Shown: positions 13,071 through 53,263 of the stretch, piece by piece | Position numbering within the stretch: position 1 is the first letter of the stretch | Layout: every line of letters begins with the position of its first letter | Source of the DNA: Oscillospiraceae bacterium | GTDB lineage: Bacteria > Bacillota > Clostridia > Oscillospirales > CAG-272 | DNA length: 64,000 nucleotides | Direction of reading: 5' to 3' | NCBI GenBank assembly: GCA_015063325.1 | Contig: SVUK01000003.1 | Location: 124,001-188,000 of the forward strand | The notes under the pieces: model-generated | Told to the model about the DNA's origin: nothing | The model's input: the letters and a program-made list of their open reading frames with translations, nothing else | The model's database searches: none | Position numbers and translations under genes: made by a program

Positions 13071-13199
13071 CCGCCGCGCCGCCGCAAACGGAACGTTTGC
13101 GGAGTTAAAAAAGAGCAAAACGCAATTTTTGCGTTTTGCTCTTTTTTGTTTGCGGTGACGGGCACCGTCACCGCCCGGCGCGGCGCCCGGCAAGCCGGG
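13071..13199 (+). repeat. Family B cloverleaf-like element, copy B1
   Basis: The closing stem is CCGCCGCGCC (13071-13080) with GGCGCGGCG (13177-13185). Inside it are three hairpins. P2 at 13082-13102 has a 9-bp stem with loop GAA. P3 at 13107-13147 has a 19-bp stem between A- and T-runs. P4 at 13152-13174 has a 10-bp stem with loop GCA. An extra CCCGGC/GCCGGG hairpin follows at 13186-13199. P3 should act as a bidirectional intrinsic terminator after the XRE gene. Confidence 0.9.
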
Positions 13200-13235
13200 T
13201 GCGAATACAAAAAGCCACCTGCCCTTCGTTTTCAA

Positions 13236-13325
13236 GTTCTTTTAGAGGGTGGGGAAAGTTTGAAAGGGGCGGGGGACATTTTCTTTCAAGAAAAGTCCCC
13301 CGCCCCTTTCAAGGTCTTCTTTCTA
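13236..13325 (-). repeat. Family E palindromic element, copy E2
   Basis: The core at 13260-13312 pairs TTGAAAGGGGCGGGGGAC with its complement around ATTTTCTTTCAAGAAAA, with the family's unpaired A in one arm. It lies directly behind the gapA stop codon in the orientation common to all copies (AAGTTCTTTT end distal to the gene). Confidence 0.9.
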
Positions 13326-13332
13326 AACTCTA

Positions 13333-14355
13333 TTACAGTTCAGCGAAGTATTTAATGGTGCGGACCATCTGGCTGGTGTAGGAGTTCTCGTTATCGTACC
13401 AAGCAACAACCTGCACCTGGTAGGTGTTATCGTCAATTTTTGCGACCATGGTCTGGGTTGCATCGAAGATGGAGCCGTGGGTCTCGCCGATGATATCGGA
13501 GGAGACGAGCTGTTCTTCGGTGTAGCCGAAGGAAGCCGAAGAAGCGGCTTTCATTGCGGCGTTGATACCCTCAACGGTGATATCCTTGCCCTTGACGACG
13601 GCAACCAGGATGGTGGTGGAGCCGGTGGGTACCGGGACGCGCTGAGCGGAACCGATAAGTTTGCCGTTCAGTTCGGGAATAACCAAACCGATTGCCTTTG
13701 CGGCACCGGTGGAGTTGGGAACGATGTTCACGGCAGCGGCGCGAGCGCGGCGGAGGTCACCCTTTCTGTGGGGACCGTCAAGAACCATCTGGTCGCCGGT
13801 GAAGGCGTGAACAGTGGTCATGATACCGGACTGGATGGGGGCGTAATCGTTCAGGGTTTTTGCCATGGGAGCCAGGCAGTTGGTGGTGCAGGAAGCGGCG
13901 GAAATGATCTGGTCGTCGGCGGTCAGGGTGTTTTCATTGACCGAGAAAACGATGGTCTTCAGATCCTTGCCGGCAGGAGCGGAAATGACGACTTTCTTTG
14001 CGCCTGCGGTGATGTGTGCCATGGATTTTTCCTTGGAGGTATAGAAACCGGTGCACTCCAAAACAACATCCACTTTCAGTTTCTTCCAGGGAAGGTTTGC
14101 GGCGTCTTTCTCCGCATAGATTTTGATGGTCTTGCCTGCAACGGTCAGGGTGCCTTCTTCATCGTTGGCGCTGACGGTGTCAGCCAGAGCATATCTGCCC
14201 TGTGCCGAGTCGTATTTGAGCAGGTGAGCGAGCATCGAGGGTTTGGTAAGGTCGTTGATAGCAACAATGGTGTAACCCTTTGCGCCGAACATCTGACGGA
14301 AAGCGAGACGACCGATGCGACCGAAACCGTTAATTGCAACTTTTACGTTTGCCAT
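13333..14355 (-). CDS. gapA: Glyceraldehyde-3-phosphate dehydrogenase (type I)
   Basis: This is the NAD-dependent glycolytic enzyme that oxidises and phosphorylates glyceraldehyde-3-phosphate. The 340-residue protein has the Rossmann start [18 protein letters not shown], the catalytic cysteine in [10 protein letters not shown], and the conserved C-terminal [15 protein letters not shown]. The start is ATG 14355, with GGAGGA upstream; the frame to 14400 has no such site. It is monocistronic, with a promoter at 14431-14459 and repeat E2 after the stop. Codon choice is strongly biased, as expected for a highly expressed gene. Confidence 0.97.
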
Positions 14356-14430
14356 TGGAAAAAATCCTCCGTTTTTTTTCATTTTCTGAATTGAGAGCAA
14401 CTGATCGGTTGCCCTTCTTCTTCATTTAAT

Positions 14431-14459
14431 ATTTTACAGCATTTTTTTCCAACTTGCAA
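14431..14459 (-). promoter_or_regulatory. gapA promoter
   Basis: On the minus strand TTGCAA and TAAAAT are spaced by 17 bases, leaving a leader of about 65 bases before gapA. Confidence 0.7.
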
Positions 14460-14515
14460 GCATTTTGTGAAAAATTCCTCATTTTTGTTAGAAATAGATG
14501 AATTTGCGTCTCAAT

Positions 14516-15268
14516 TCACTTGTTTTGTAGGCGATTTGACGCATTTTCGTCTGTTTTTTTGCCTGCAAATCGAAACCGCACGAGTGCCGGAAGATTGCGC
14601 AGGCGGCGCGGCTGGGTTACCATTCGCCATGCCCATTCCATATTTGCGGCGCGGACCAGCCCGGGCGCGCGGCGCACGCGCCCTGCCCAAACGTCAAGAC
14701 TGCCCCCAAGTCCGGCGGCAATGCGCACCGATGGCAAAAAGCCGACATTTTCGCGGATCCACTGCTCCTGAATCGGGAAACCGAAACAGACCAGCAGGAT
14801 AGACGGCTTGCAGGAATTGATGATGCTCAAAAGACGTCGATTTTCCTCCCCGTGTCGATCGAAATACCCCCAAAAACAGCCGCAAATGCAAAGCCCCGGA
14901 AATTTTTTTTGCAGATTTTTCGCCGCCGCAGGGGCAACGCCGTCGCCGCCGCCCAACAAAAAGACGCGCTCGCCGCGCTCCGCCGCCACGGCAAGCAGTC
15001 GCTCGGCAAAATCAATACCGGCAACGCGCTCGCGCAAGGGTGTTCCCTGCCGCCGCGCCGCCGAAAGAATCCCGGCACCGTCGGGAAGGACCATCGACGC
15101 CGAATTGACCAGCCGACAGAGAGAAGGATCCTTGGCGCAAGCCTGTGCCATAAGCGCATTTGGCGTGACAACCGTTTGCGGCTCCCCATGATCGCGTAAT
15201 GCGCGGCGTACCGCCTCGTCCATGCTTAAATTATCAAATCGTATGCCGAAAACCGTTACCTTCCCCAT
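14516..15268 (-). CDS. WecG/TagA/CpsF family glycosyltransferase
   Basis: This 250-residue GT26 protein probably adds a second sugar (N-acetylmannosamine class) to a lipid-linked GlcNAc in teichoic acid or surface polysaccharide synthesis. Supporting motifs are the N-terminal VTPNALM, the SASMVLPDGAGI block with the catalytic Asp region, FLLGGGDGVA, and the CFGFPIQEQWI segment. The start is ATG 15268 (MGKVTVFG), six bases after AAGGAG; the 50 residues open upstream are Phe/Cys-rich and not family-like. It stands alone between gapA and the second XRE cassette. Donor and acceptor are not readable from sequence. Confidence 0.88.
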   Translation of the reverse strand: MGKVTVFGIRFDNLSMDEAVRRALRDHGEPQTVVTPNALMAQACAKDPSLCRLVNSASMVLPDGAGILSAARRQGTPLRERVAGIDFAERLLAVAAERGERVFLLGGGDGVAPAAAKNLQKKFPGLCICGCFWGYFDRHGEENRRLLSIINSCKPSILLVCFGFPIQEQWIRENVGFLPSVRIAAGLGGSLDVWAGRVRRAPGLVRAANMEWAWRMVTQPRRLRNLPALVRFRFAGKKTDENASNRLQNK

Positions 15269-15442
15269 GTCAAGCTCCTTTTTCCAAATCAATTTTTTCA
15301 AAAATAGTATGCCACAAAAACACCGCAAAACTGCGCGATTTTTGAACGGCAAGATTTGGAAAAACGGACAGCACAAAATTTTTTCGGACAAACAAAAAAG
15401 AGGCGGAACGAAATCCACCTTTTGCGAAATTTTTTATCAAAG

Positions 15443-15652
15443 TCAGCGGCGAGTGGGGTCGTTGCTCTCGCCCAAAATATAATCAATGCTGGTATCGTAA
15501 AATCGGGAAAGCTGAATAAGAATGTGGGTTGGAATATCGTTCTCGCCGGTTTCGTACTTGGAATATCCCGTTTGCGACATTCCAAGCATTTTGGCGACCT
15601 GCGTTTGGTTCAAATCGCGGTCTTCGCGCAAGTCACGCAGGCGAGGATACAT
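15443..15652 (-). CDS. XRE-family HTH regulator of cassette 2
   Basis: This 69-residue protein is essentially only a Cro/C1-type helix-turn-helix (LRDLREDRDLNQTQVAKMLGMSQTGYSKYETG). The start is ATG 15652 behind AAGGGGG; the frame is open to 15691 without a ribosome site. It is divergent from the peptide gene at 15783 with 130 bp between them, the same arrangement as at 12790/12658. It probably binds the paired sites at 15694-15731 that overlap the forward promoter. Confidence 0.87.
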   Translation of the reverse strand: MYPRLRDLREDRDLNQTQVAKMLGMSQTGYSKYETGENDIPTHILIQLSRFYDTSIDYILGESNDPTRR

Positions 15653-15693
15653 AGCCAAATTCCCCCTTTTCCCTTTTTTCTCATTATACAATA

Positions 15694-15731
15694 ATCTGTT
15701 TCAGGGTATTGACTTTTAATCTGAAATAGAT
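15694..15731. promoter_or_regulatory. Paired operator half-sites overlapping promoter
   Basis: Two ATCTG-N4-AG sites (centres about 15700 and 15725, 25 bp apart) also form a long inverted repeat, AATCTGTTTCAG with CTGAAATAGATT. The second lies between the -35 and -10 boxes of the peptide gene promoter. Confidence 0.6.
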
Positions 15732-15737
15732 TATAAT
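15709..15737 (+). promoter_or_regulatory. Promoter of the peptide/secreted-protein operon
   Basis: TTGACT (15709-15714) and TATAAT (15732-15737) are spaced by 17 bases and overlap the operator half-sites. Confidence 0.85.
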
Positions 15738-15782
15738 TGTATTTGACATTTTTTGTCAATATGAAAAAAGGAGAAGAAAAGC

Positions 15783-15902
15783 ATGAAAAAAGATTACCAA
15801 CCGCCCGAAATCCTGAAAATTTCAATCGATTTGCAGGATATTTTAACCACTTCACCCGGAAGCAGCGAACTTGACCCCGACATGAAACTCAAAAAACTAT
15901 AA
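15783..15902 (+). CDS. Conserved small peptide preceding secreted LRR protein
   Basis: A 39-residue frame starts at ATG 15783 behind AAGGAG and stops 16 bases before the ATG of the 1532-residue secreted protein. The sequence begins MKKDYQPPEILKI and shares 18 of 24 N-terminal residues with the peptide at 12518, up to the LTTS block. Its tail (SSELDPDMKLKKL) is unrelated. No signal peptide, cysteine or membrane segment is seen. The conserved distance to the secreted protein suggests translational coupling. It could be a leader, a regulator-binding peptide or a RiPP-like precursor; none is shown. Confidence 0.78.
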   Translation: MKKDYQPPEILKISIDLQDILTTSPGSSELDPDMKLKKL

Positions 15903-15918
15903 AAAAGGAGAAAAACCC

Positions 15919-18900
15919 ATGAAAAAGAAGATTCTACTGCTTGCCCTGTCGATTCTTTGCCTTGCGGCGCTGCTTGGCATTGTTTTTGTTGCCAACGCGG
16001 CGGAGGCTCCGGCAACCGATATTGTCGGGCACAACCTCTCGCTGGACGACAGCGTGCAGATCATTTATTACGTAAAGCAAACCGCTCCCGAGGGGGCGGA
16101 GGTCGGCGTTCTCTGCTGGTTCGATCCGCAACAGAACTACACGCTTGAGAACGCGCAGTACAAGCTGAAACAAAGCGGCACGCAAACCATCGGCGGATAT
16201 GAATATGCCAAATATACTTTCCCCCATGTTGCCGCGAAGATGTACACGCAGGACGTGTATGCCGTTTCGTATATCAAAGCAGGCGATACGATTACATACA
16301 GCTCCCTTGACAAATACAGCGTGTTGCAGTACTGCCAAAACAAGAAGAACAGCGGCAGTGCGCTGGGGAACTTGGTCGATCAGATTTTGGAGTACGGCGC
16401 GGCGGCGCAAGTCTACTTTGATTTCAATATTGACCGCCTTGCCAACGCCGATTATTACCAAATCAGCGTGAAAAATGGCGTGCTGGAGGACGGGACGACC
16501 GAGGGGCTGTATCAGGCAGGCGAAACGATCACTCTGAAAGCGATTGCTCCCGAAAACGCTTACGTGCTTTGGAAGAACAGCGCGGAGGAGGTTGTTGGAA
16601 CGACCGCCGGGCTGACCGTTACCGTTGCGGCTGGCGAAACCTACACATCGCTAAGCCTTTCAAATTCCTACAACAGCACCTATGGCTATGAATATCTCGG
16701 CACCATGGAAAAGGGAGCGGATCGGCAAACGCTCTACAAGCGCATTGATAATGCCTGCAAGCTCTTCCATCTAAACGCCGGACAAACGGTGGAAATGGTG
16801 GACAATCACTCCATTTTTTCCCGGGTGTCCTATGCCGATCTTTCGCTGACCGACAGCGAAGCGATTTCCGTTTGGAAGACCGTTAAGGACGATTGTCCGC
16901 TGTATTACTGGCTTTCCAACACCGTTCAGTATTCGTCGGATAAAACGCTGTCGCTCATTTCGGTAGATGAATACGCCGATGGCGCCGCGCGGATCGCCCA
17001 AAATCAGGCGCTTTCCAAAAAGATCGACGAATACGTTGCAAAGGTAGACCCGGACGCCACCAACTACCAAAAGGCGCTTGCCTTCCACGATTGGATCATC
17101 GAGGCGGTCAACTATACCTACGGCACCGACGGAAAGCCCGAAACCGCCGATTGGGCGCATAGCGTCGTTGGCGTTTTTGCCGGGAAGGGCGCCGTTTGCG
17201 AAAGCTACGCGCGTAGCTTCCAGTTGCTGCTGAACGTGACCGGTGTGGAAAACATTTTCGTTTCCGGCCGCTCAAAGAACGACGACCACGCTTGGAACCT
17301 TGTCAAAATGGATGACGGCAGCTGGTATTGGTTTGACCTGACCTACGACGACCTTGGCGAAGGGAACACCTTCGGCGTTACCTATACCTATTTCTGTGCG
17401 ACCGATTCCGGCTTTTTGAGCTCGCACACTCCGCATACCACCTCCGGAACATACGTCAGTTTCCTGTACGACCTGCCGGCGCGATCGGCGACTGCCTTTG
17501 CCGGCGGCGAGGGCGAGCGGCTTTTGGGAAGCGCCTTTACCTCCGGCATTTATACCGGCAAAATCGTTGGTTATCGCGCGGTGGAGCTGCATGAAATCAA
17601 CACCGACGATCAGGACGTGGTGATTCCCGAGCAGATCGAGATCGACGGAAAACTCTATACCGTTGTTTCGTTGGGATACGATGATGGATACGAGGTCGTG
17701 TCAAGTGGAACCCGTTTAGTTGTCCTGCCCAAAACGGTAAAATTCATTTGGGATCGTGCATTTCGTGTTTCCTCGATCGCATCGTTCCAGGTTGACGAGG
17801 AAAACGTATGGTTCCGCTCGCAGGACGGCGTACTGTTCACAAAATCACTCTATACGCTAATCCGATATCCAAGCGCGAACAGCCGGACCGAATACCGGAT
17901 TCCCGATGAAACAAGAGAACTTGCATATTGGTCTTTTGAGAGTTGCTCCCATTTGGAAACGCTGGCGTTTGGGAAAAATGTGAAGATCATTGGCATTACA
18001 AACTGGGGAAACGGATACCATGATTCCGGAAATTATTCCTTTGGGAATATTGTACAGGGCGGTTTTTCCAGAATTCTGAGCAGTCTTGCCGGAAACGGAA
18101 CCATCCTGATCGACCCGGAAAACGCTACCTATGAAAGCGATGGAAGCGCGATCTACACAAAAGGAAAAACGGGATTGATGGTGCTCTTACCAGCAACAAC
18201 CACTTACGAAATTCCAAAAAATTTAAGATATATTGATTCCATTAGTACCGGGTCAAATGTGCTGACCGGAAACAAATCATTGGCGTTCATTACCGTCGAG
18301 GAAGGAAACGCCTACTTCAGTGCGGTTGACGGCGTGCTTTATAACAAAGCGCAAACGGAAATCGTTGCGGCTCCACGCGCACTCACGGGGCCCGTGACCA
18401 TTCCGGACGGCGTGACGACCCTTGGGCAGTATGCGTTCTACAACTGTATCTCCTTGACGGGCATTACCATACCAGACAGCGTGACGAGTATTGATAGATT
18501 TGCGTTCTCCCAATGCTATTGCTTGGTAGAGGTTCACAATTTGTCCGCACTTCCAATTGTCGCCGGAAGTGGGGATTATGGCGGTGTTGGCTATTATGCA
18601 AAACATGTTTACAAGGACGGCGAAAGTTACCTATACACCACCGATGATGGCTTTATATTCTATGACGACGGTACGGACGTATATCTAGTCCAACACAATG
18701 GAACAGAAACAGACCTGACCTTGCCGGAGACCTATAACGGAAAGCCTTATGCAGTCTATCAATATGCGTTCTACAATTGCACCTTCTTGACGAGCGTGAC
18801 CATTCCGGATAGCGTGACGAGCATTGGAAATTATGCGTTCAACGGTTGCACCTCCTTGACGAGCGTGACCATTCCGGATAGCGTGACGTGGATTGGAGAA

Positions 18901-20517
18901 CGGGCATTCGCTTATTGTGCATCTTTGAAAACAGTATCAATTGGCAAGAATGTTAAAGCAATGGGAACTGACAATGGCGTCTATAACATTAGCGGCACAT
19001 TTGCATATAACCCGGAACTTTCTTATGTCTATTTTAATGCCGTTGAATGTGACGATTTCTCCCATTGGGGGCCAAAACCATTTCAAGGTAGTGGGAAAAA
19101 CCACGGTATTTGTTTGGTAATTGGCAAGGATTGCAAACGAGTTCCTTCCGGTTTGTTAAACTTCAACCAGGATTCCTCGCCATACATTACATACGTAACA
19201 GAGATCCTTTTTGAGGAAGGAAGCGTTTGCGAATGCATTGGTTCGAACGCGTTTTCAAATTCTTACATTACAAGTATCACGCTTCCAAGCAGTTTGAAAA
19301 CAATTGAATCCTATGCTTTCGACGGTTGTAATCAACTTGTGGAAGTTTTCAATCTTTCGCAATTAGAAATTGTAAAAGGTGAAACAAGTAACGGGAGCGT
19401 TGGTTACTATGCAATCGATGTTTATAATGAGATTTCCGATAAAAAAACAGGAAGAACCGAGGAGGGGTATCTCTTTTATTCAAACCCTGAAAATGGCGTT
19501 AATTACCTGTTAGGTTATATTGGAAGCGATAAAACGCTGGTTTTGCCGGAACTCATCAATGGTCTTCCTTACGTAATTCACAGTTATTCTTTCAAAAACG
19601 GAGCGGCAGAATTATACGGTCGGGGTTTAACGGATATTATCATTCCAAATACCATAATTGGAATTGAATCGAATGCATTTGCTGGGTGCGATCGACTAAA
19701 TTACAACATTTATGACAACGCCAAATACCTTGGCAACGAGAGCAATCCCTACATTGTGTTGATAAAAGCAACCGATCTTTCTATTACCTCTTGTACCATC
19801 CATCCGGATACAAAGTTCATTTATAGTTCTGCGTTCTCCCAATGCTATTACTTGGTAGAGGTTCACAATTTGTCCGCACTTCCAATTACTGCCGGAAGCG
19901 AGGATTATGGCGGTGTTGGCTATTATGCAAAACATGTTTACAAGGACGGCGAAAGTTACCTACACACCACCGATGATGGCTTTATATTCTATGACGACGG
20001 TACGGACGTATATCTTGTCCAACACAACGGAACAGAAACAGACCTGACCTTGCCGGAGACCTACAACGGAAAGCCTTATGCAGTCTATCAATATGCGTTC
20101 TACAATTGCACCTCCTTGACGAGCGTGACCATAGGGAACAGCGTGACGAGCATTGGAGAGTATGCGTTCTCCTGGTGCACCTCCTTGACGAGCGTGATAA
20201 TTCCGGACAGCGTGACGAGCATTGGAGAGTATGCGTTCTCCGGTTGCACCTCCTTGACGAGCATGACGATCGGAAACAGCGTAACGAGCATTGGAAATGG
20301 TGCGTTCTTCGGTTGCGAATCATTGACGAGCGTGACGATTCCGGACAGCGTGACGAGCATTGGAAGGTATGCGTTCTATGATTGCTACTCCTTGACCGAA
20401 ATCATCTTCCTTGGAACCGAGGAAGAATGGAATGCCATCAGCAAAGGGAGCAACTGGAATTACAACACCGGCGCCTATACCGTTCACTGCACCGACGGCA
20501 ATCTTGAAAAATCATAA
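15919..20517 (+). CDS. Giant secreted LRR/transglutaminase-like surface protein
   Basis: This 1532-residue protein has a signal peptide (residues 1-28). Residues 30-250 repeat the module of the 837-residue paralogue at 9987. A transglutaminase/peptidase-like domain follows, with a visible triad: Cys427 in GAVCESYA, His457 in DDHAWN and Asp473 in FDLTYDD. The remaining 950 residues are BspA-type LRR_5 repeats, 23 residues long ([18 protein letters not shown] type). Two copies of a roughly 340-bp segment lie 1329 bp apart, in frame. The C-terminus [20 protein letters not shown] matches the paralogue. No sortase signal is present. The family is often linked to surface adhesion; the substrate of the triad is unknown. 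Repeat B2 abuts the stop codon. Confidence 0.87.
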   Translation: MKKKILLLALSILCLAALLGIVFVANAAEAPATDIVGHNLSLDDSVQIIYYVKQTAPEGAEVGVLCWFDPQQNYTLENAQYKLKQSGTQTIGGYEYAKYTFPHVAAKMYTQDVYAVSYIKAGDTITYSSLDKYSVLQYCQNKKNSGSALGNLVDQILEYGAAAQVYFDFNIDRLANADYYQISVKNGVLEDGTTEGLYQAGETITLKAIAPENAYVLWKNSAEEVVGTTAGLTVTVAAGETYTSLSLSNSYNSTYGYEYLGTMEKGADRQTLYKRIDNACKLFHLNAGQTVEMVDNHSIFSRVSYADLSLTDSEAISVWKTVKDDCPLYYWLSNTVQYSSDKTLSLISVDEYADGAARIAQNQALSKKIDEYVAKVDPDATNYQKALAFHDWIIEAVNYTYGTDGKPETADWAHSVVGVFAGKGAVCESYARSFQLLLNVTGVENIFVSGRSKNDDHAWNLVKMDDGSWYWFDLTYDDLGEGNTFGVTYTYFCATDSGFLSSHTPHTTSGTYVSFLYDLPARSATAFAGGEGERLLGSAFTSGIYTGKIVGYRAVELHEINTDDQDVVIPEQIEIDGKLYTVVSLGYDDGYEVVSSGTRLVVLPKTVKFIWDRAFRVSSIASFQVDEENVWFRSQDGVLFTKSLYTLIRYPSANSRTEYRIPDETRELAYWSFESCSHLETLAFGKNVKIIGITNWGNGYHDSGNYSFGNIVQGGFSRILSSLAGNGTILIDPENATYESDGSAIYTKGKTGLMVLLPATTTYEIPKNLRYIDSISTGSNVLTGNKSLAFITVEEGNAYFSAVDGVLYNKAQTEIVAAPRALTGPVTIPDGVTTLGQYAFYNCISLTGITIPDSVTSIDRFAFSQCYCLVEVHNLSALPIVAGSGDYGGVGYYAKHVYKDGESYLYTTDDGFIFYDDGTDVYLVQHNGTETDLTLPETYNGKPYAVYQYAFYNCTFLTSVTIPDSVTSIGNYAFNGCTSLTSVTIPDSVTWIGERAFAYCASLKTVSIGKNVKAMGTDNGVYNISGTFAYNPELSYVYFNAVECDDFSHWGPKPFQGSGKNHGICLVIGKDCKRVPSGLLNFNQDSSPYITYVTEILFEEGSVCECIGSNAFSNSYITSITLPSSLKTIESYAFDGCNQLVEVFNLSQLEIVKGETSNGSVGYYAIDVYNEISDKKTGRTEEGYLFYSNPENGVNYLLGYIGSDKTLVLPELINGLPYVIHSYSFKNGAAELYGRGLTDIIIPNTIIGIESNAFAGCDRLNYNIYDNAKYLGNESNPYIVLIKATDLSITSCTIHPDTKFIYSSAFSQCYYLVEVHNLSALPITAGSEDYGGVGYYAKHVYKDGESYLHTTDDGFIFYDDGTDVYLVQHNGTETDLTLPETYNGKPYAVYQYAFYNCTSLTSVTIGNSVTSIGEYAFSWCTSLTSVIIPDSVTSIGEYAFSGCTSLTSMTIGNSVTSIGNGAFFGCESLTSVTIPDSVTSIGRYAFYDCYSLTEIIFLGTEEEWNAISKGSNWNYNTGAYTVHCTDGNLEKS
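18502..18840 (+). repeat. Long in-frame direct repeat, first copy
   Basis: This segment recurs at 19831-20169 with only scattered base changes. The offset is 1329 bp, exactly 443 codons. The identity includes the unusual non-LRR insert (FYDDGTDVYLVQHNGTE), which marks it as a recent duplication rather than ordinary LRR similarity. Confidence 0.88.
19831..20169 (+). repeat. Long in-frame direct repeat, second copy
   Basis: This is the partner of 18502-18840. Downstream of it, nearly identical 69-bp LRR units run to about 20395. Confidence 0.88.
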
Positions 20518-20518
20518 G

Positions 20519-20634
20519 CCCCGCCGCGGCGGGCGGAATGGAACATTCCGCAAAGAAAAGGGAGCAAAACGCAAATTGCGTTTTGCTCCCTTTTCAGCAG
20601 CCGCAAAAGGCACTTTTGCGGTGCCGCGGCGGGC
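20519..20634 (+). repeat. Family B cloverleaf-like element, copy B2
   Basis: The closing stem is CCGCCGCGGC (20521-20530) with GCCGCGGCGG (20623-20632). P2 at 20533-20551 has loop GAA. P3 at 20556-20594 has 19-bp arms around a single A. P4 at 20601-20621 has loop GCA. Compared with B1, the closing stem changes C to G on one side and G to C on the other. It starts directly after the stop codon of the giant protein. Confidence 0.92.
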
Positions 20635-20667
20635 ATTCGGAGCAGTAAAGAAAGCCGATCTCTAAAA

Positions 20668-20765
20668 CCTTCAAACCTTTGGTTGAAGTTTTTGAAAACG
20701 GGGAGAGCGCGAGAGGGGAGAAACCTTTTTCCAAAAAGGTTTCTCCCCTCTCGCGGCCTTTCTAC
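20668..20765 (-). repeat. Family E palindromic element, copy E3
   Basis: The core at 20708-20755 has 23-bp arms (CGCGAGAGGGGAGAAACCTT and complement) around two bases. A second hairpin, CTTCAAACC/GGTTGAAG, lies on the distal side; this subtype is shared only with E6. It follows the pckA stop codon in the family orientation. Confidence 0.9.
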
Positions 20766-20774
20766 CTTTATCTC

Positions 20775-32610: not shown

Positions 32611-32658
32611 AAAGCAACCGAAAAAGCGCCGAAAAAATCCGCTTTTTCCCAAAAAAAT

Positions 32659-32706
32659 CTTCAAAAAGGACCTCTTTTTCAGGTGAAAAAGAGGTCCTTT
32701 TTGAAG
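32659..32706 (+). terminator. Long perfect terminator hairpin
   Basis: A 22-bp perfect stem with loop AGGT lies about 50 bases after the XRE-membrane gene. From here to 33014 there is no convincing gene. A weak TAAATCTACCG inverted repeat (about 32740-32790) and the promoter at 32938 are all I see. Confidence 0.8.
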
Positions 32707-32937
32707 AAAAATGCGGTAGAATTGTTTATTGCATTCCCGATTTAAATCTACCGAAGGGCGGATTCTGCTCTACCGGCGGTAGATTTAATGATTTTTCCAA
32801 AAGGGCAAGAAATCAAAGAATGTTTAAAAAAGCGCATAAATAAGCCATTCTACAAAATCTATAATCAAGAGAATATGCCTCTACGCGAAAAAGAATTGCA
32901 TTTTCAGAATTGTGGAGGCGCAACACCGAAAAGTAGG

Positions 32938-33989: not shown

Positions 33990-34010
33990 AAATCGTCAGA
34001 CCGATACAAA

Positions 34011-34056
34011 CCGCAAGGGGCGGAACTTGTTTTCAAACAGGTTCCGCCCCTTGCGG
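34011..34056 (+). terminator. Terminator between convergent genes
   Basis: CCGCAAGGGGCGGAAC pairs with its complement around 14 bases and is followed by TGTTTTTT. Confidence 0.85.
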
Positions 34057-34063
34057 TGTTTTT

Positions 34064-43150: not shown

Positions 43151-43258
43151 TCAAAAACTCCAAACCTTTGGTTGGAGTTTTTGAAAAGGGAGGGGGCTTG
43201 GGGGAGGGGAAAACTTTTTGCAAAAAGTTTTCCCCTCCCCCAAGGTCTTCCCCTCCCT
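43151..43258 (-). repeat. Family E palindromic element, copy E6 (perfect 48-bp core)
   Basis: The core at 43197-43244 is a perfect 48-bp palindrome (CTTGGGGGAGGGGAAAACTT arm). A distal hairpin CTCCAAACC/GGTTGGAG defines the E3/E6 subtype. It abuts the stop codon of the SGNH hydrolase gene. Confidence 0.95.
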
Positions 43259-45296: not shown

Positions 45297-45349
45297 GAAA
45301 AAAAGAAAATATTGTAAAGAAAAAAGATACCCTATCTGTTTTGCCTTTT

Positions 45350-45448
45350 CCGCCGCGCCGACTGTGGCAGAGCCACAGCACAGAAAAAAGGAGAGCCGAA
45401 AAGCTCTCCTTTCTTCGATTGGCACCCGGCAAAGCCGGGTGGGCGCGG
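45350..45448 (+). repeat. Family B cloverleaf-like element, copy B3
   Basis: The closing stem pairs CCGCGCC (45353-45359) with GGCGCGG (45442-45448). P2 at 45362-45378 has loop AGA. P3 at 45387-45412 pairs AAAGGAGAGC with GCTCTCCTTT. P4 at 45423-45441 has loop AAA and is the same CACCCGGC hairpin that trails B1. It lies behind the tspO stop codon, in inverted orientation relative to that gene. Confidence 0.9.
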
Positions 45449-45469
45449 TGAGAATACAAGACTGCTTTC

Positions 45470-45958: not shown

Positions 45959-46035
45959 AACAGAGCTCCTTTCGCAAAATGCGTTTTCGGTACCCCTATT
46001 ATATGGCGGCCGCGCTTGTCTTTATTCCGAAAAGA

Positions 46036-46065
46036 CCCCCGGTTGATCCTTTTTTCAACCGGGGG
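46036..46065 (-). terminator. Terminator behind the tocopherol-cyclase-like gene
   Basis: CCCCCGGTTGA and its complement pair around eight bases, with T-runs on both strands. Confidence 0.82.
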
Positions 46066-46074
46066 CGCGTTTTT

Positions 46075-46935: not shown

Positions 46936-46968
46936 AAAAACCGCTCCCTTTTCCTTGCCATTTTTTCC

Positions 46969-46997
46969 ATTTTATCATAAATAAAAATATTTGTCAA
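46969..46997 (-). promoter_or_regulatory. Promoter of the tocopherol-cyclase-like gene
   Basis: On the minus strand TTGACA and TAAAAT are spaced by 17 bases. Confidence 0.82.
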
Positions 46998-47027
46998 GGA
47001 AAAAGGAGCGCGCTTTCCCTGTTGCCT

Positions 47028-49415
47028 TTACTCCGCGTTTTTGAGCGCTTCGACCATATCGATCTTCTTGTTTTTCCGCGCCACCATCCAGCCGACGAGA
47101 AGCGATACGCCGAAAGTGAGCAAAATGGAAGCAAGATAAGTCAAAGGCCCGAGCATCAATTTCATTTCGTATTCCGAAGCGAGCGCCGAAAGCATCCATT
47201 GCAGTGTTCCCAGCCCGGCAGGAAGCCCGAGAATGACGCCGACGACGGTCAGCCAGATATTTTGGGAAATGAGCAGTCGCCCGATTTTTCTGCTTCGGAA
47301 GCCGAGCACTTTCAGGGTTGCGAGTTCGCGCGAACGCTCTACATAACTCATAATACCGAGGTTGTAGAGTACCACGATGCCGAGGATGACGGCGGCAATA
47401 ACCAAAATGATGACCATGCCGTCCATAATTTGCACGAAACTGCCGAAACTGTCCATCAGTTGCCGTTTATCCTGCTTGCCGGAAATAAGCTCTGACGAGG
47501 GAATCTCGCCCGAATCTTGATTGGTATAAAGCGCCGATATACTATACTTGATTCCGAGTTCGTCGGCAAGTTCCGCCGTCATGGTAATGCTTTCGGTCAT
47601 GATGGAACGGTTATAGCCGACCACCTTGACACGGTAAGTTTCCTCCCCACCATAGGGCGAAAACTCAATGTATTCGCCGATTTCTGCCCGGTCGGCAAGC
47701 CGCAGGCAGAGATAAACGCCGTCGTTTGAAAGGGCGATCGGCTTGTTGTTTTTGTCGATCACGTCAAATCTGCCCTTGTCGTTTTGGACAATATCCAGCG
47801 TTGCCGTGTATCCGTCAATGCTGATGCCGGAATAGCTTTCCCAGTCGGCGTCCAATTCGGCGATCAGCCCTTTTGCCCGTTCGTAATCGGTATTCTCCAC
47901 AAGGTTGACCTTGGTGGTATAATGCGAAACACCGTTGTCAAGCAGATCAAGAAACCCTGCCATGGTATCGCGCATTCCAAGTCCACCGACCAAAAGAACC
48001 ATACAGCCGATAATTCCGACCAGCGTCATGGCAAAACGACTTTTATGACGCGAAAGGTCGCGTAGATTCCACTTGGTTGCAAAATCCATCTTTTTGAAAA
48101 TCAACAGTTTTTCAAGCAAGGATTGTTTCATCTTTTTGGGCGTGTAAGGGCGGAGCGCATCTGCGGCTGTTCCGCGTAACTGCGCTTTGACCGATAGAAA
48201 ACTAATGAGCATGAGAAGCAAAATTGTTCCTACAATGACCGGGTAACAAAATACGGGTGTTGCCGCCGTCCAATCGGGCATATCGAAATAAGTGCCCATC
48301 ATGCCGTTCTCGCTCATTACCGCTTTGCAAACAAAATAGCCGAGCACCGCGCCGAGCGCCGCACCGATGACGCCTATGGTCAGACCATAGAAGGAATAGT
48401 GCAAAAGAATCGTCCTGTTTTTGAACCCTAACGCCTTGAGAACACCGATTTGCGTTTTCTCCTTGGTGGCAATACGGTGCATGGTGGTAACCATCGTTAA
48501 AATGGCAATGGCAAGGAACAACACCGGCAGAATCGACCCCATCGCCTTGCCCTCAGTCGCCTCCCCCATTGCCTCTTTGTAAACGGCGTGGTCTTCCTTT
48601 GGAACCACCATCAGCGTTCTGCCGAGCTTTTCGCTGACGGCGTCCTCCAATTCGGCTTTTTCCAATTTCGAGCGCAAATTGATTTGTGCAAAAACTTTGT
48701 CGGTTGCCGACGCAAGCATTTCATCGGTCAGCGTAGCTTCCGCCTGCGTTTTTGCCGCCGCGGCAGGAACGCCGGCTTTCTGCAAGTCGTCGGCAAGATT
48801 GTTCAAAATCTTTTGCCGCAGAATAGCGTTTAGTTTTGCAGGAGAGATATAAGCAAACCCAAATGTGTTGAAATCCGGCATAACCTGGTTCGAGTCGGCA
48901 AGGCAGATCATATGCTCGCCTGCCTTGATCAGCCCGACAACCGCGCATTCAATTTCGGTTCCCTGAAATTCAAACGTCAGCGTATCGCCGACGGCAATTC
49001 CGTTTTTATTTGCAAATTTGTCCGAAAGCCAAACGCCGGCGCTTGTCTCATCATAATCCGAACCGCTCATCAGGGTAAAGGTAGAAACGGTGTAGTTTTC
49101 CGAAACGTCCAGCGCGAGGGCTTTTTTGCTCTCTCCCTTGACTTCCAGATTGACCGAGAGATAGCGCGTTGCCGCGTCCACGCCGTCAATCGAAGCAATT
49201 TTGTTAAGATCATCCTTGGTAAAACCGGTTTCCGAATACAACCGATAATCGGCGTAGTTGGTTTCCTCAAAAAAGGTTGATACATCGTATTCAATGGTTT
49301 TCCATTCCATGTTAAAGCCAAGAAAAATGCCGATTCCAAGCGTCATCATAATGATCATGGAAATGAATTGCGCCTTGTAGCTCCACGCAGTGCGGAGCAT
49401 TTTTTTGAACAACAT
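47028..49415 (-). CDS. FtsX/MacB-type ABC transporter permease
   Basis: The 795-residue protein has an N-terminal membrane helix, a large extracytoplasmic domain (about residues 45-290) and two FtsX-type membrane blocks (residues 300-430 and 675-785), with a second external domain between them. This is the layout of Bacillota peptide-antibiotic and lipid exporters. ATG 49415 shares a base with the stop of the ATPase gene (TGATG), so the two are coupled. The operon is probably controlled by the paired GTTAGC palindromes upstream of the ATPase gene. Substrate unknown; bacitracin-type defence is one possibility. Confidence 0.88.
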   Translation of the reverse strand: MLFKKMLRTAWSYKAQFISMIIMMTLGIGIFLGFNMEWKTIEYDVSTFFEETNYADYRLYSETGFTKDDLNKIASIDGVDAATRYLSVNLEVKGESKKALALDVSENYTVSTFTLMSGSDYDETSAGVWLSDKFANKNGIAVGDTLTFEFQGTEIECAVVGLIKAGEHMICLADSNQVMPDFNTFGFAYISPAKLNAILRQKILNNLADDLQKAGVPAAAAKTQAEATLTDEMLASATDKVFAQINLRSKLEKAELEDAVSEKLGRTLMVVPKEDHAVYKEAMGEATEGKAMGSILPVLFLAIAILTMVTTMHRIATKEKTQIGVLKALGFKNRTILLHYSFYGLTIGVIGAALGAVLGYFVCKAVMSENGMMGTYFDMPDWTAATPVFCYPVIVGTILLLMLISFLSVKAQLRGTAADALRPYTPKKMKQSLLEKLLIFKKMDFATKWNLRDLSRHKSRFAMTLVGIIGCMVLLVGGLGMRDTMAGFLDLLDNGVSHYTTKVNLVENTDYERAKGLIAELDADWESYSGISIDGYTATLDIVQNDKGRFDVIDKNNKPIALSNDGVYLCLRLADRAEIGEYIEFSPYGGEETYRVKVVGYNRSIMTESITMTAELADELGIKYSISALYTNQDSGEIPSSELISGKQDKRQLMDSFGSFVQIMDGMVIILVIAAVILGIVVLYNLGIMSYVERSRELATLKVLGFRSRKIGRLLISQNIWLTVVGVILGLPAGLGTLQWMLSALASEYEMKLMLGPLTYLASILLTFGVSLLVGWMVARKNKKIDMVEALKNAE

Positions 49416-50116
49416 CACCACTCCACCTCGTCAGCGGAAAGCGGATTTTCCTGCTCGATGACCTCGCGGATCTTTCCGTTCTTGACGCGGATTACTTCAT
49501 CCGCCATTTTCGCAATGTTCTGGTTATGAGTGACGATAACGATGGTCTTGCCGTAGTTGCGCGCCATTTCCAAAAGCAGTTTTAACACCATGACACCGGT
49601 TTCGGAATCAAGCGCACCGGTCGGCTCATCGCAAAGCAGAATTTTGGGATTCTTGCAAAGTGCGCGTGCTATGGAAATGCGCTGCTGTTCGCCGCCCGAA
49701 AGCTCCGCCGGAAAGTTATTCAGATGGTCGGAAAGCCCCACTTTGGCAATCATCTCTTTCGCGTCCAAGGCATTTTTGGAAATTTCGGAAACAAGTTTGA
49801 CGTTCTCAAAAACGGTCAGTGTGGGAATCAAATTATAAAATTGAAACACAAAGCCGACCGTGGACGCGCGGTAATCGGCAAGTTCGTTGTCGGTCAGTTT
49901 GGAAATATCCGCGCCCGAAACGGTAATTTTGCCCTCGCTTGGGCTATCCAGACCGCCGAGCAGGTTGAGCAACGTGCTTTTCCCCGCTCCGGACGGGCCT
50001 AATATCACCACGAATTTGCCCTCGTCAAGAGCAAAATCGACATGATCCAGCGCGCGTAGCTCATGGTCGCCGCTTTTGTAGATTTTTGATACGTTTTCAA
50101 ATTGAACGATGGACAT
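49415..50116 (-). CDS. MacB/LolD-type ABC transporter ATPase
   Basis: The 233-residue ATPase has Walker A LGPSGAGKSTLLN, Q-loop FVFQFYNLIPTLTV, signature LSGGEQQRISIARAL and Walker B ILLCDEPTGALDSE. ATG 50116 follows GGGAGG; the frame to 50143 runs into the operator. It powers the FtsX-type permease at 47028. Its 5' leader carries two GTTAGC-type palindromes, suggesting a repressor encoded elsewhere. Confidence 0.93.
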   Translation of the reverse strand: MSIVQFENVSKIYKSGDHELRALDHVDFALDEGKFVVILGPSGAGKSTLLNLLGGLDSPSEGKITVSGADISKLTDNELADYRASTVGFVFQFYNLIPTLTVFENVKLVSEISKNALDAKEMIAKVGLSDHLNNFPAELSGGEQQRISIARALCKNPKILLCDEPTGALDSETGVMVLKLLLEMARNYGKTIVIVTHNQNIAKMADEVIRVKNGKIREVIEQENPLSADEVEW

Positions 50117-50135
50117 ATGAAAGCCTCCCACATTT

Positions 50136-50151
50136 GTTAGCATATGCTAAC
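50136..50151. promoter_or_regulatory. Operator palindrome GTTAGCATATGCTAAC
   Basis: This perfect 16-bp palindrome lies in the 5' leader, 20 bases before the ATPase start codon. Its centre is 67 bp from that of the second copy. Confidence 0.8.
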
Positions 50152-50202
50152 TCATTGTCGAAAAAGAAAGAGCAAGTTGCTCTTTTATATTTCATTTTGA
50201 GA

Positions 50203-50218
50203 GTTAGCCTTTGCTAAC
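50203..50218. promoter_or_regulatory. Operator palindrome GTTAGCCTTTGCTAAC
   Basis: The same 6+6 arms abut the -10 box of the promoter, covering the expected transcription start. A TetR/MarR-type repressor site is likely. AGAGCA/TGCTCT, a small hairpin, lies between the two operators. Confidence 0.8.
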
Positions 50219-50219
50219 A

Positions 50220-50248
50220 ATTATACCAGCACCTAATTGGTTTGTCAA
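50220..50248 (-). promoter_or_regulatory. Promoter of the FtsX-type ABC operon
   Basis: On the minus strand TTGACA and TATAAT are spaced by 17 bases: a strong promoter followed at once by an operator. Confidence 0.9.
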
Positions 50249-50305
50249 TAGGTTTTTTATTATTTTTTCCGATCGGCAGTCTTCCAGCCTTTTCTCTTTC
50301 GTTTC

Positions 50306-50383
50306 AAATTTCTTTTGGAGGGTAGGGTGCAGGTGGAGAGGGACTTTTCTTGCAAGAAAAGTCCCTCTCCACCTTTTTATCTT
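50306..50383 (-). repeat. Family E palindromic element, copy E7 (perfect 44-bp core)
   Basis: The core at 50331-50374 is a perfect 44-bp palindrome centred on CTTGCAAG. It directly follows the stop codon of the amino-acid ABC ATPase gene. The distal end TTTCTTTTGGAGGG matches the family. Confidence 0.93.
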
Positions 50384-50384
50384 C

Positions 50385-51170
50385 CTATTTCTGAATCGAT
50401 CCTACAAACTCCTTCAGCCGGACGCTGGGGCAATCCGCTCCGAACGCCGTTTTGGTATCACCGTAGTAGTCGACCACGCCGTTATCCATAAACAGGATTT
50501 GATCGGCGACCTCGGCGGCAAACGCCATTTCATGTGTAACGACGATCATGGTCATATTATCGTCGGCGAGCGAACGGAGAACGTTCAAAACCTCAACCGT
50601 CAGTTCGGGGTCAAGCGCCGAAGTCGGCTCATCAAAGCAGAGAATATCCGGCGACATAGCAAGCGCACGAGCGATTGCCACGCGCTGTTGCTGTCCGCCC
50701 GAAAGCTGACAAGGGTAGGCGTCGGCTTTCTCCGAAAGTCCCACCTTGGCAAGCAGTTCGTTGGCTTTCGCCTCAATTTCTGCAAACAGGGTTTTGCGCT
50801 TCGCCTTGTCTTTTTCCTGCTCTTTTGCCAACAATTTGGGCGCTAAACACAGGTTTTCGCGCACCGTGTACTGCGGAAAGAGATTGAAGTTTTGAAACAC
50901 CAATCCAAAATGCAACCGCTTTTCGCGCAGTTCTTTTTCAGAAAGTTTTTTCGCTCCCTCCGCGTTAAAAAGCAGTTCCCCGTTCAAAAACATTTTGCCC
51001 TCGTCCGGCGTTTCCAAAAAGTTGATGCATCGCAAAAGAGTGGTCTTGCCCGACCCGGAAGAGCCGATGATGGCAAGCGTTTTTCCCTTTTCCAACGACA
51101 GGTCGATCCCCTTGAGAACTTCGGTGCGTCCAAAGCTCTTTTTCACGCCTTGAAATTCCAAAAATGCCAT
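50385..51170 (-). CDS. Polar amino-acid ABC transporter ATPase
   Basis: The 261-residue ATPase belongs to the GlnQ/ArtP-type polar amino-acid importers. It has Walker A IIGSSGSGKTTLLRCINFLE, signature LSGGQQQRVAIARAL and Walker B ILCFDEPTSALDPE. An insertion of about 20 charged residues lies in the helical domain (KEQEKDKAKRK). ATG 51170 follows GGGAG. It is the last gene of the binding-protein/permease/ATPase operon. Confidence 0.93.
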   Translation of the reverse strand: MAFLEFQGVKKSFGRTEVLKGIDLSLEKGKTLAIIGSSGSGKTTLLRCINFLETPDEGKMFLNGELLFNAEGAKKLSEKELREKRLHFGLVFQNFNLFPQYTVRENLCLAPKLLAKEQEKDKAKRKTLFAEIEAKANELLAKVGLSEKADAYPCQLSGGQQQRVAIARALAMSPDILCFDEPTSALDPELTVEVLNVLRSLADDNMTMIVVTHEMAFAAEVADQILFMDNGVVDYYGDTKTAFGADCPSVRLKEFVGSIQK

Positions 51171-51191
51171 GGCTTTCTCTCCCTTCCCCCC

Positions 51192-51887
51192 TCAACTTTT
51201 GAAATAGGCGAGTTTCTTTTCCAGCCGCCCCAAAAGTATGGTCAATCCGCCGACAAAGAGCAAATAGAACACTCCCGTATAGAACAGCGGCCAAATGAGC
51301 GCTTGCGTTGCCGCAAGTTTTTTCGCCTGCCAGATAACCTCGGCAACCGTGATGCAGTTTGCCAGCGCCGTATCCTTGATGAGCGTGATGATCTCGTTGG
51401 ACATGGGTGGTACAATTCGTTTAACGACCTGCAACAGCACCACGCGGAAAAAGATTTGCCGGCGCGTCATCCCCAAAACCTGCCCCGCTTCATATTGCCC
51501 TTGGCTGATGCTCTCAATGCCGCCGCGGTAGATCTCGGAGAAATAGCAGGCGTAGTTAATGGAAAACGCAATGAGAACCGCAAAAATTCGACCGGCATCT
51601 TCAATCCCGTAATTCAGAAAGAAAAACTTATCTACCTGCGCAAAAATTTGATGATTGAACACCAATCCCGGAACATAATAAATAATGAAGATCTGCAACA
51701 TCAGCGGTACGCCGCGAATGATCCAAACGAACACCTTGGAAACGGTGCGTAACGGTTTGAAACGGCTCATGGAGCAAAATGCAATGGGAAGCCCCAGCGG
51801 AATGCCGACAAGCAAGGTAACGCAAAAGATCAGACAGGAAAGTTTAAACCCGTTGAGCAAAAAAACGGTGATTTGCCAAAATGTCAT
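51192..51887 (-). CDS. Polar amino-acid ABC transporter permease
   Basis: The 231-residue membrane protein is a HisM/GlnP-type permease with five or six helices. The coupling EAA loop is EAGQVLGMTRRQIFFRVVLLQ, and the N-terminal part has FVWIIRGVPLMLQIF. ATG 51887 follows AAAGGA. It lies between binding protein and ATPase; a stable hairpin (51926-51957) separates it from the binding-protein gene. Confidence 0.94.
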   Translation of the reverse strand: MTFWQITVFLLNGFKLSCLIFCVTLLVGIPLGLPIAFCSMSRFKPLRTVSKVFVWIIRGVPLMLQIFIIYYVPGLVFNHQIFAQVDKFFFLNYGIEDAGRIFAVLIAFSINYACYFSEIYRGGIESISQGQYEAGQVLGMTRRQIFFRVVLLQVVKRIVPPMSNEIITLIKDTALANCITVAEVIWQAKKLAATQALIWPLFYTGVFYLLFVGGLTILLGRLEKKLAYFKS

Positions 51888-51925
51888 GGTAAAAATCCTT
51901 TCGAGAAAATCGAAAAACAGCCGTC

Positions 51926-51957
51926 AACGGCGCAGGAGTTCTCACCCCTGCGCCGTT
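51926..51957 (-). promoter_or_regulatory. Intercistronic hairpin in the amino-acid ABC operon
   Basis: AACGGCGCAGG and CCTGCGCCGTT pair around ten bases, with no T-run after it. It probably protects the binding-protein mRNA from 3' decay, or acts as a weak attenuator, so that more binding protein than membrane part is made. Confidence 0.65.
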
Positions 51958-52021
51958 GTGCGGTTAAGCAACAAAAATTTAAAAACGGAAGACTTTGAAA
52001 AAGGTCGTTCTCAAAGAACTC

Positions 52022-52840
52022 TTATTTTTGACTGGTGAAATCGGTGATAACCGTGGTGGCAACGCCGTATTTCTCAGCAAGGGTAAGCAGTTCGCCGCTC
52101 TTTGCAAGCGCCTCAAGCTGCTCGTTAACTTTTGCGGTCAAGTCGCTTCCCTTCTTGAAACCGATGGCATAGAACTCGGTATCGCCCGAAAGAGTTTCCA
52201 CAATGGCAAGATCGGAATAGTCACCCTTGCCGCAGTAGCTCTTGGCAAGCTGAACGTCCAAAACAGCGAAATCAGAAGCGCCGGATTTGACTTCCATCAG
52301 CGCGTCGGTCTGTTTCAAAACGGTTTTCACGGTAGCTTCGGTAAAGTTCTCTTTTGCAAAGCCTTCGCCGGCGGAACCAGCCTCTGCTGCTCCGGCTTTT
52401 CCGGCAAGGTCGGCAGCAGTGGCAATGCCGCTATCCTTTTTCGCAACTACAACCTGCTGATTTTCCATGTAGTTATAGGAAAAATCAACCTTGGAAGAAC
52501 GCGCTACGCCATCGTCATCCGAGCAGTTTGCGGTAAAGCCGTTCCAAACGCAGTCGATGGTGCCGGAGTTAAGATCCATGTACTTATTATCCCAGTTGAT
52601 CTCTTTGAAGATGATCTTGTAGCCGAGAGCGCCGAACACCTTCTCGGCAAGTTCGGTATCAAAACCGACCAGTTTTCCGGTTTCGTCCACATAGTTCATC
52701 GGGGCATAATCGGTATAGCCGACGGTAACGACTTTTTCTTCGGGTTGTGCGTCTTCGGTCTTTTTGCCGCAGGATGCGAACATTGCGACGGTTGCGAGCA
52801 GAAGGACTGCCGCCATTGCGATTGCGATAAGCTTTTTCAT
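52022..52840 (-). CDS. Amino-acid ABC transporter substrate-binding lipoprotein
   Basis: The 272-residue protein is a family 3 extracellular solute-binding protein. A lipoprotein signal ends in the lipobox AMFASC (Cys near residue 24). The family motifs GFDTELAEKVFGALGYK, WDNKYMDLNSGTIDCVWNG and the C-terminal GFKKGSDLTAKVNEQLEAL are present. It feeds the permease and ATPase that follow. ATG 52840 follows AAGGAG. The ligand is probably a polar amino acid; which one is not clear. Confidence 0.94.
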   Translation of the reverse strand: MKKLIAIAMAAVLLLATVAMFASCGKKTEDAQPEEKVVTVGYTDYAPMNYVDETGKLVGFDTELAEKVFGALGYKIIFKEINWDNKYMDLNSGTIDCVWNGFTANCSDDDGVARSSKVDFSYNYMENQQVVVAKKDSGIATAADLAGKAGAAEAGSAGEGFAKENFTEATVKTVLKQTDALMEVKSGASDFAVLDVQLAKSYCGKGDYSDLAIVETLSGDTEFYAIGFKKGSDLTAKVNEQLEALAKSGELLTLAEKYGVATTVITDFTSQK

Positions 52841-52881
52841 TTTTTGTTTCTCCTTTTTTGTTTGGCTCTTTGCCTTTTTGA

Positions 52882-52911
52882 TTTAGCAGTTTAACGCTTT
52901 AGCCTGCTAAA
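52882..52911 (-). promoter_or_regulatory. Leader hairpin before the binding-protein gene
   Basis: TTTAGCAG and CTGCTAAA pair in the 5' leader, between the promoter at 52923 and the gene. It could be an operator or a transcript hairpin; I cannot tell which. Confidence 0.45.
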
Positions 52912-52922
52912 CTGATGAATTC

Positions 52923-52950
52923 ATTATAGCACTTTTCAAACAAATGTCAA
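52923..52950 (-). promoter_or_regulatory. Promoter of the amino-acid ABC operon
   Basis: On the minus strand TTGACA and TATAAT are spaced by 16 bases. Upstream, an 18-bp TTTGATA-N4-TATCAAA palindrome (52986-53003) may be a regulator site. The rest of the 53003-53157 gap is AT-rich and shows no gene. Confidence 0.85.
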
Positions 52951-53157
52951 TAGTTTTTTGCAAATTTTTTCCGTTTTTTAAAAGTTTGATAAAAATATCA
53001 AATTTAATAGTTTTTGCAATTTGTTTTTATTAAACATGCACAAAGTAAATATGGGGAAGCCAAACAACAGACAACATTTGTTATAGTAGGGTAGGTTTGC
53101 AAGTAACAAAATCCCAAAAACAACAAGTTATAACCAAACTTCCCGTTTTTCCCCAAA

Positions 53158-53263
53158 CCGCCGCGCCAACCCACAAAATGTGGGTTTAGAAAGAAAAAGG
53201 ACGAAGAATTTTCTTCGTCCTTTTTCTTGTGCTGTGACGTGACACGTCACAGCCGGCGCGGCG
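53158..53263 (+). repeat. Family B cloverleaf-like element, copy B4
   Basis: The closing stem is CCGCCGCGCC (53158-53167) with GGCGCGGCG (53255-53263). P2 at 53168-53186 has loop AAA. P3 at 53191-53228 has 18-bp arms around two bases. P4 at 53231-53253 pairs GCTGTGACG with CGTCACAGC. None of the three hairpin sequences resembles those of B1-B3. Confidence 0.92.

Follow-up and report, generated by a model that had tools for sequence, protein, structure and literature searches.

A cloverleaf-like repeat with exchangeable hairpin arms, probably a mobile or recently mobile terminator, in a few sister species of Clostridia

At four places in a 64,000-nucleotide stretch of an Oscillospiraceae bacterium (assembly GCA_015063325.1, contig SVUK01000003.1, positions 124,001 to 188,000; hereafter the window), a short closing stem encloses three hairpins whose sequences vary strongly from copy to copy. 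The question raised by this locus is whether such a cloverleaf is kept by selection on a four-way junction, in RNA or DNA, or arises from a copying process that rewrites its arms in pairs. We find that the cloverleaf is real, non-random and lineage-specific. It is probably a terminator repeat that moves or has moved recently, and it resembles a dispersed palindromic repeat more than a fixed RNA. The explanation that we favor, and consider somewhat probable, is a small non-coding repeat of the kind of miniature inverted-repeat transposable elements (MITEs) and SPRITE, copied as a unit, with its central hairpin (P3) serving as a terminator at gene ends and its arms swapped and palindrome-repaired, alongside selection.

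The window copies are B1 (13071..13186, plus strand), B2 (20519..20634, minus), B3 (45350..45451, minus), and B4 (53158..53264, plus), with covariance-model scores of 69.1, 69.1, 64.6 and 103.5 bits, respectively. All four lie where a sequence-only reading of the window had placed them, and all have the closing stem and three hairpins in both RNA and single-stranded DNA folds. That reading had treated them as one layout; the architecture is indeed shared, but the direction is not, B2 and B3 being opposite to B1 and B4. In B1 the closing stem (13072-13081/13176-13185) encloses P2 (13082-13102), the terminator-like P3 (13106-13148) and P4 (13152-13174). The start given earlier for B1 is correct, but its end, 13199, is not; the sequence from 13186 to 13200 is a separate free hairpin, CCCGGCAAGCCGGG, assigned to no strand, which adjoins B1 and is a module of the same kind as one arm of B3 (45423-45441) and of C18b, a copy elsewhere in the genome. 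B2 has a closing stem at 20520-20530/20623-20633, with the C-G to G-C swap noticed earlier present in its folded sequence, outer hairpins at 20533-20551 and 20601-20621, and P3 at 20555-20595. The corresponding parts of B3 are 45353-45359/45442-45448, 45362-45378, 45423-45441 and 45383-45416 (P3); those of B4 are 53159-53167/53255-53263, P2 53168-53186, P3 53191-53228 and P4 53231-53253. The A-run and T-run of P3, previously credited to three copies, are present in all four, although of unequal length in B3 (six and three). Folded with RNA parameters and short flanks, B1 to B4 reach -89, -84, -66 and -73 kcal/mol. As single-stranded DNA they have z-scores of -11.7, -11.9, -6.3 and -14.1, and all nine copies of the genome lie 6 to 14 standard deviations below their shuffles, with none of 200 shuffles as stable in any case.

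A covariance model built from 18 copies found nine places in the 1.68-Mb genome containing the window (G000) when 150 of 2140 first-look candidates were scored; in their better orientation these have E-values of 4e-18 to 8e-10. The next match, at E 0.2, was an ordinary terminator (L056) behind a gene that we take to be that of triosephosphate isomerase. A pattern for the closing stem alone matched seven distinct places and none in a reversed control. A looser version matched 12 places, each on both strands, versus 10 in the reversed control; seven of the 12 are copies, C8 and B2 being new, and the other five lie in coding-like sequence, resemble chance matches and were dropped unfolded.

Among 35 genomes of the genus, eight had a model match at E <= 0.001, with real copies in G000 and the sister species G031, G032 and G033; single weak matches in G019, G022, G010 and G015 (L059-L062) were judged by eye to be non-copies, and no copy was found in the remaining genomes of the 35 with 111 first-look candidates scored per genome. 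In a 196-genome sample of the family, with stricter filters and 19 candidates scored per genome, only G000 matched at 1e-6, the three sister species evidently lying outside the sample. An exact pattern including the P3 core, run over one genome per species (84,980 species), returned five stretches in three metagenome-assembled genomes (MAGs) of uncultured Clostridia, matching G031-G033. It also returned records from two Kaistella species (L091, L092), which were rejected as having a different architecture; in these a long GC-rich inverted repeat is followed by a terminator-like hairpin, in nearly identical sequence. A scan of viral_contigs returned nothing, and no Rfam family matched the cloverleaf at gathering score, the window yielding only two tRNAs. 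Within the reach of these searches, the family occurs in a few sister species only.

The copy set comprises 30 elements, nine from G000 and 21 from the sister species (five in G031, five in G032 and 11 in G033). The MAG assemblies are fragmentary, and copy numbers there are lower bounds. Two partial copies, C72 of G031, which lacks its 5' half, and C126 of G033, which is cut by a contig end, were kept outside the set, and C124 of G032, a hairpin adjoining a tRNA-like sequence, was dropped. All 30 copies have three arms, which we call X, P3 and Y, although this is partly by construction as the model chose the copies. Orientation was set by aligning the arm that touches the closing stem, and is least certain for B3 and C18b. 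The elements are short, non-coding and dispersed, about 100-116 bp in G000 and 100-118 bp over the family, and most are bounded by terminal inverted repeats, namely the two 9-10 bp strands of the closing stem. Only two closing stems are damaged (C124 and C54b of G033). The stems of X, P3 and Y span 5-9, 13-20 and 6-16 bp; 71 of the 90 arms are free of bulges and mismatches, 67 have loops of three bases, and the 30 P3 arms together contain one bulge and six mismatches.

The covariation that the four window copies suggested stays strong in an alignment of 28 copies, from which the two with damaged closing stems were left out. Both sides change at 34 of 47 pairs, compared with 21.1 in shuffles, and the covariation score is 0.290 versus 0.145; in neither measure was any of 500 shuffles as high. 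Shuffling does not keep the relatedness of the copies; slid structures, which do keep it, scored 0.07-0.13. Covarying changes fall in all four helices. Within the closing stem, G-C replaces C-G at position 10 in B2, at position 9 in C73 of G031, and at outer pairs in several G033 copies. The fraction of paired cells, 80.7%, is probably an underestimate because MAFFT mis-registers some P3 and X arms.

The sequence-only reading went further and held that structure is shared and sequence is not, and on that ground set ordinary mobile repeats aside. This was too strong, as median pairwise identity over the 30 copies is 69% and B1 has a copy, C18a, that is 98% identical although it stands on a different contig in opposite orientation. 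The likeness of the two does not extend past the closing stem. C24a and C26 of G033 likewise share 96% identity, and the flanks of both pairs, at 0.53-0.57 compared with a median of 0.50-0.53, are at background. The five G032 copies share 81-93% identity in all ten pairs, again with background flanks except for C68 and C76, which also share the left flank (0.87) and are preceded by the same further repeat. Since near-identical copies agree up to the closing stem and have unrelated flanks, the unit has been copied whole, with the closing stem as its ends.

In G000 the copies lie close to the ends of genes. An open frame of at least 86 amino acids ends within about 200 bp of each of the nine G000 copies, at distances of 1 to about 200 bp, although at C15 this is only an 88-amino-acid frame of unclear status, 50 bp away. 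With neighbors named from Pfam matches, B1 lies between a convergent HTH gene (plus strand, ending at 13062) and gapA (minus, ending at 13333), and B2 between a convergent transglutaminase/LRR gene (plus, stop at 20517) and pckA (minus). B3 is about 20 bp 3' of tspO (minus) and 5' of a GH30 gene (minus), and B4 about 100 bp 3' of a beta-eliminating lyase gene (minus, ending at 53368). Elsewhere in G000, C8 is 3' of bipA, C11 is between a small frame and tetR, which are convergent, C18a follows a small gene upstream of recA, C18b is 3' of nagB, and C15 is at the prt site.

The anatomy of P3 suggests what the cloverleaf may do there. With its GC stem and a T-run on both strands, P3 looks like a bidirectional intrinsic terminator; A-run and T-run both reach at least four bases near the stem base in 22 of the 30 copies, one only does so in three, and neither in five. 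We sought the orthologous sites in six relatives with one joined query and read the sites by eye. At tspO, which is syntenic on both sides in G000, G031 and G032, the element is present in the same orientation in G000 and G031 and a plain terminator is found in G032. Plain terminators also occupy the place of C15 in G031 and G032, and the nagB site in G031 and G033. At gapA, G000 and G032 have copies in opposite orientation, G031 has a plain terminator after a hairpin of another kind (family A, described below), and G033 has family A only. At pckA a copy is present in G000 and G032, a piece without its 5' half in G031, and family A only in G034. At bipA the copy of G000 is matched in G033 by hairpins only, after the same preceding repeats, and G034, G028 and G019 have none. 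The tetR site carries a family A hairpin in G031 and a plain terminator in G028; upstream of recA there is no copy in any of five relatives, and the lyase query for the B4 site gave no match in the six. The form of P3, together with what relatives carry at these sites (plain terminators or family A hairpins), makes it probable that the cloverleaf stops transcription at gene ends. If transcription ends at P3, the transcript contains neither P4 nor the closing strand, and the whole junction could exist only in DNA or in read-through RNA. This favors reading the closing stem as the edge of the copied unit over reading it as a piece of a functioning RNA.

Between a selected four-way junction and a paired rewriting of arms, the two options originally offered, paired change is borne out, including at the doubly syntenic tspO site, where B3 and the G031 copy differ by three both-sided changes in a 7-bp Y arm and have entirely different X arms. 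Neither option had allowed for the part of the difference that comes from the swapping of whole arms and the copying of whole units. The Y arm GCGGAATG occurs with the X arms ACCCGCG (G032) and CCGCAAAAG (B2), ACCCGC-type X arms occur with both GCGGAATG and GCTGTGGC, and CCCGGC-type hairpins are found both as arms and free beside elements. Arms are thus swapped between copies.

Paired change is not confined to the cloverleaf. Family A consists of long hairpins without a junction, five of which are in the window (20708-20755, 32658-32707, 34010-34057, 43197-43244 and 50331-50374). Four of the five are perfect over 20-23 bp, that at 20708-20755, between B2 and pckA, over 22 of 22 bp, and two have a self-complementary center and so are perfect palindromes. 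Similar hairpins occur 3' of gapA, pckA and bipA in several species of the genus, and by eye their stems differ on both sides between species. Paired differences in a family with no junction mean that paired change alone does not show the junction to be selected, and a general mechanism is more economical than one specific to the cloverleaf. Replication template switching, as described in PMC8794818, can make and repair perfect hairpins and give multi-base compensatory changes. The sequence between family A and the cloverleaf often contains further repeats in similar order (a AAAACTCC..GGAGTTTTTGAAA hairpin, then GCTCCGGGT.., then GGGGCTTTATTTTTTGGCG..), and such BIME-like mosaics are seen at L010 1296-1500, L037, L044, L082, L128 and L095.

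The history we favor would then run as follows. A unit of about 100-118 bp, bounded by its 9-10 bp closing stem, would spread by copying, and on landing at the 3' end of a gene its P3 would terminate transcription intrinsically in both directions and could take over from that gene's own terminator. The arms would diverge in two ways, by exchange between copies and with free hairpins nearby, and by palindrome repair at the DNA level, for example through replication template switching, in which one side of an arm is rewritten from the other; we infer the latter, and it is the weakest step. Selection for a working termination hairpin would act alongside both.

Several results weigh against this history. 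By eye, no target site duplication is seen in the flanks of 18 copies, and a clean empty site of a recent copy is lacking. A Y1 (HUH) transposase was found in none of the four assemblies, the control being positive in five of 14 genomes, and a reverse transcriptase (RVT_1) in none of them either; these were the only two families sought. Two of these assemblies are incomplete (G031 61%, G033 71%). A simple consensus terminator scan listed P3 in none of the four window copies, probably since a T-run paired with an A-run was counted as stem. Over 14 chosen close pairs of copies, 31 both-sided changes preserve pairing and six do not, compared with 38 one-sided changes. The syntenic B3 and C73 of G031 show five paired versus nine one-sided changes, many of these changes where the X arms fail to align. 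Change is mostly paired in B4/C8 (5 to 1) and C24b/C69 (6 to 3) and mostly one-sided in C24a/C26 (0 to 2) and C24b/C124 (1 to 6). One-sided changes are thus as frequent as paired ones, and ordinary mutation together with selection may be enough to explain the paired change. We also dropped the scarcity of wobble pairs as proof of upkeep at the DNA level. G-T pairs are few (21 of 1327, with 14 on the other strand), but 22 other hairpins of the window are alike (8 G-T, 6 A-C and 7 other mismatches in 364 pairs), which makes this a general trait here. Finally, copies stand beside the same gene in two species at at least five sites, which could mean vertical inheritance rather than movement.

Taken to its conclusion, this last point would make the cloverleaf a vertically inherited ornament of terminators that never moves, its copies resembling each other through gene conversion only. 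The tspO copies of G000 and G031 fit that view. It has more difficulty with copies 98% and 96% identical at unrelated sites, and with two of the shared sites, at which the copies are oppositely oriented to the shared gene (B1 and C27 of G032; C68 of G032 and C24a of G033). Gene conversion that stopped exactly at the closing stem would itself copy the unit. We regard strict vertical inheritance as unlikely, although it fares best among the alternatives.

A structured non-coding or cis-regulatory RNA, in which the four-way junction is what selection sees, would account for the strong covariation in all four helices and for the stability of the fold. Among the five G000 copies with one clear upstream gene, B3, C8, C18a and C18b point along it; B4 points against it, and three of the nine copies (B1, B2 and C11) lie between convergent genes. 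With three convergent sites, an unclear C15 and a division of four along to one against, orientation is no argument for or against an RNA, but the opposite orientations of the G000 and G032 copies at gapA fit one poorly. The neighboring genes are unrelated to each other (gapA, pckA, tspO, bipA, nagB and others), an Rfam match is absent, and the T-run of P3 precedes P4 and the closing strand, which would leave a terminated transcript unable to close the junction. Wobble pairs are few and strand-symmetric, although the control hairpins weaken this point. An RNA therefore seems to us improbable.

A more speculative proposal concerns what moves the unit. A host or mobile recombinase might recognize the folded single-stranded four-way junction of the cloverleaf and not its sequence, so that any perfect hairpin would serve as an arm. 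If true, Clostridia would have a mobile terminator that is recognized by shape and trades its arms as cassettes. We think the proposal doubtful. Integron attC sites are a parallel in working only, in that recognition by the shape of a folded single strand would put no constraint on arm sequence; the cloverleaf has three arms and attC one.

Movement of the REP/RAYT type, in which a Y1 (HUH) transposase works on single strands in folded form, is very improbable. Like REPs and BIMEs (PMC2817692, PMC3733652), the cloverleaf is palindromic, extragenic and 3'-located and occurs in mosaics with other repeats. Unlike them it has a four-way junction and far fewer copies, nine compared with a usual REP count of more than 100 in a genome (PMC2817692), and the Y1 search was negative in the four assemblies, two of them incomplete, with its control positive in five of 14 genomes. 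Chance clusters of ordinary terminators, the deflating outcome that the sequence-only reading had itself named, can be dismissed, since the resemblance of P3 to the plain terminators of the lineage and the four weak non-copies in other species of the genus stand against E-values down to 4e-18, z-scores of -6 to -14, covariation, a conserved closing stem and an empty reversed-pattern control. Neither of the outcomes by which that reading would have been refuted came about, as the genome contains more copies and the covariation holds up when they are aligned.

Compared by features, SPRITE of pneumococcus appears to be the closest known element in kind. In PMC3049150, SPRITE has 30 copies, is nearly confined to close relatives and is enriched between convergent genes; it is terminator-like, its target site duplication is described there as not established, and co-option as terminators is proposed. 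The cloverleaf is likewise small, dispersed, terminator-like, found in close relatives and close 3' of genes (C15 being unclear). SPRITE differs in being a single 18-bp duplex with a T-rich tract and AAAA/TTTT ends (PMC3049150), whereas the cloverleaf has a GC-rich closing stem around three hairpins, of which the middle one is the terminator, and exchangeable arms. RUP, BOX, ERIC and CIR (PMC10969869, PMC2229807, PMC3049150) share with it a size of about 100-200 bp, a stable fold and, in several, terminal inverted repeats; CIR has two arms and BOX is modular. The cloverleaf differs from these four in that no target site duplication is seen, in its three arms of exchangeable sequence and in its paired rewriting. 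The mitochondrial hairpin repeats of sponges (PMC2800124) are also dispersed, intergenic and multi-hairpin, with double and even triple hairpins. These keep their stems and vary their loops, while the bacterial cloverleaf varies its stems, often in pairs. A search of part of the open literature (titles and the beginnings of abstracts) found no description of the cloverleaf family, which is weak evidence of absence.

Few repeats are known that may serve as portable terminators, and the cloverleaf extends them with a multi-arm case. Its widest interest lies in hairpins that are rewritten in pairs although the DNA need not specify a functional RNA. Paired differences are found both in the dispersed elements and in neighboring single hairpins at orthologous sites, so that a covariation test could report an RNA that may not exist. 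The family thus offers a natural test case for whether paired hairpin changes always reflect selection on RNA or can also come from replication repairing palindromes.

Two kinds of gene recur beside copies. The gene before B2 (15919-20517), which encodes a BspA-type LRR protein, has related genes before C19 of G031 and C61 of G033 (L030, L083), the matched stretches being about 33-44% identical. The small gene before C18a, upstream of recA in G000 (L055), has a homologue adjoining copy C25 beside pckA in G032 (L085/L031) and, by eye, another beside gapA in G031 (L099). These genes end in a cloverleaf in G032 and G000 and in a plain terminator in G031; small gene and terminator may travel together.

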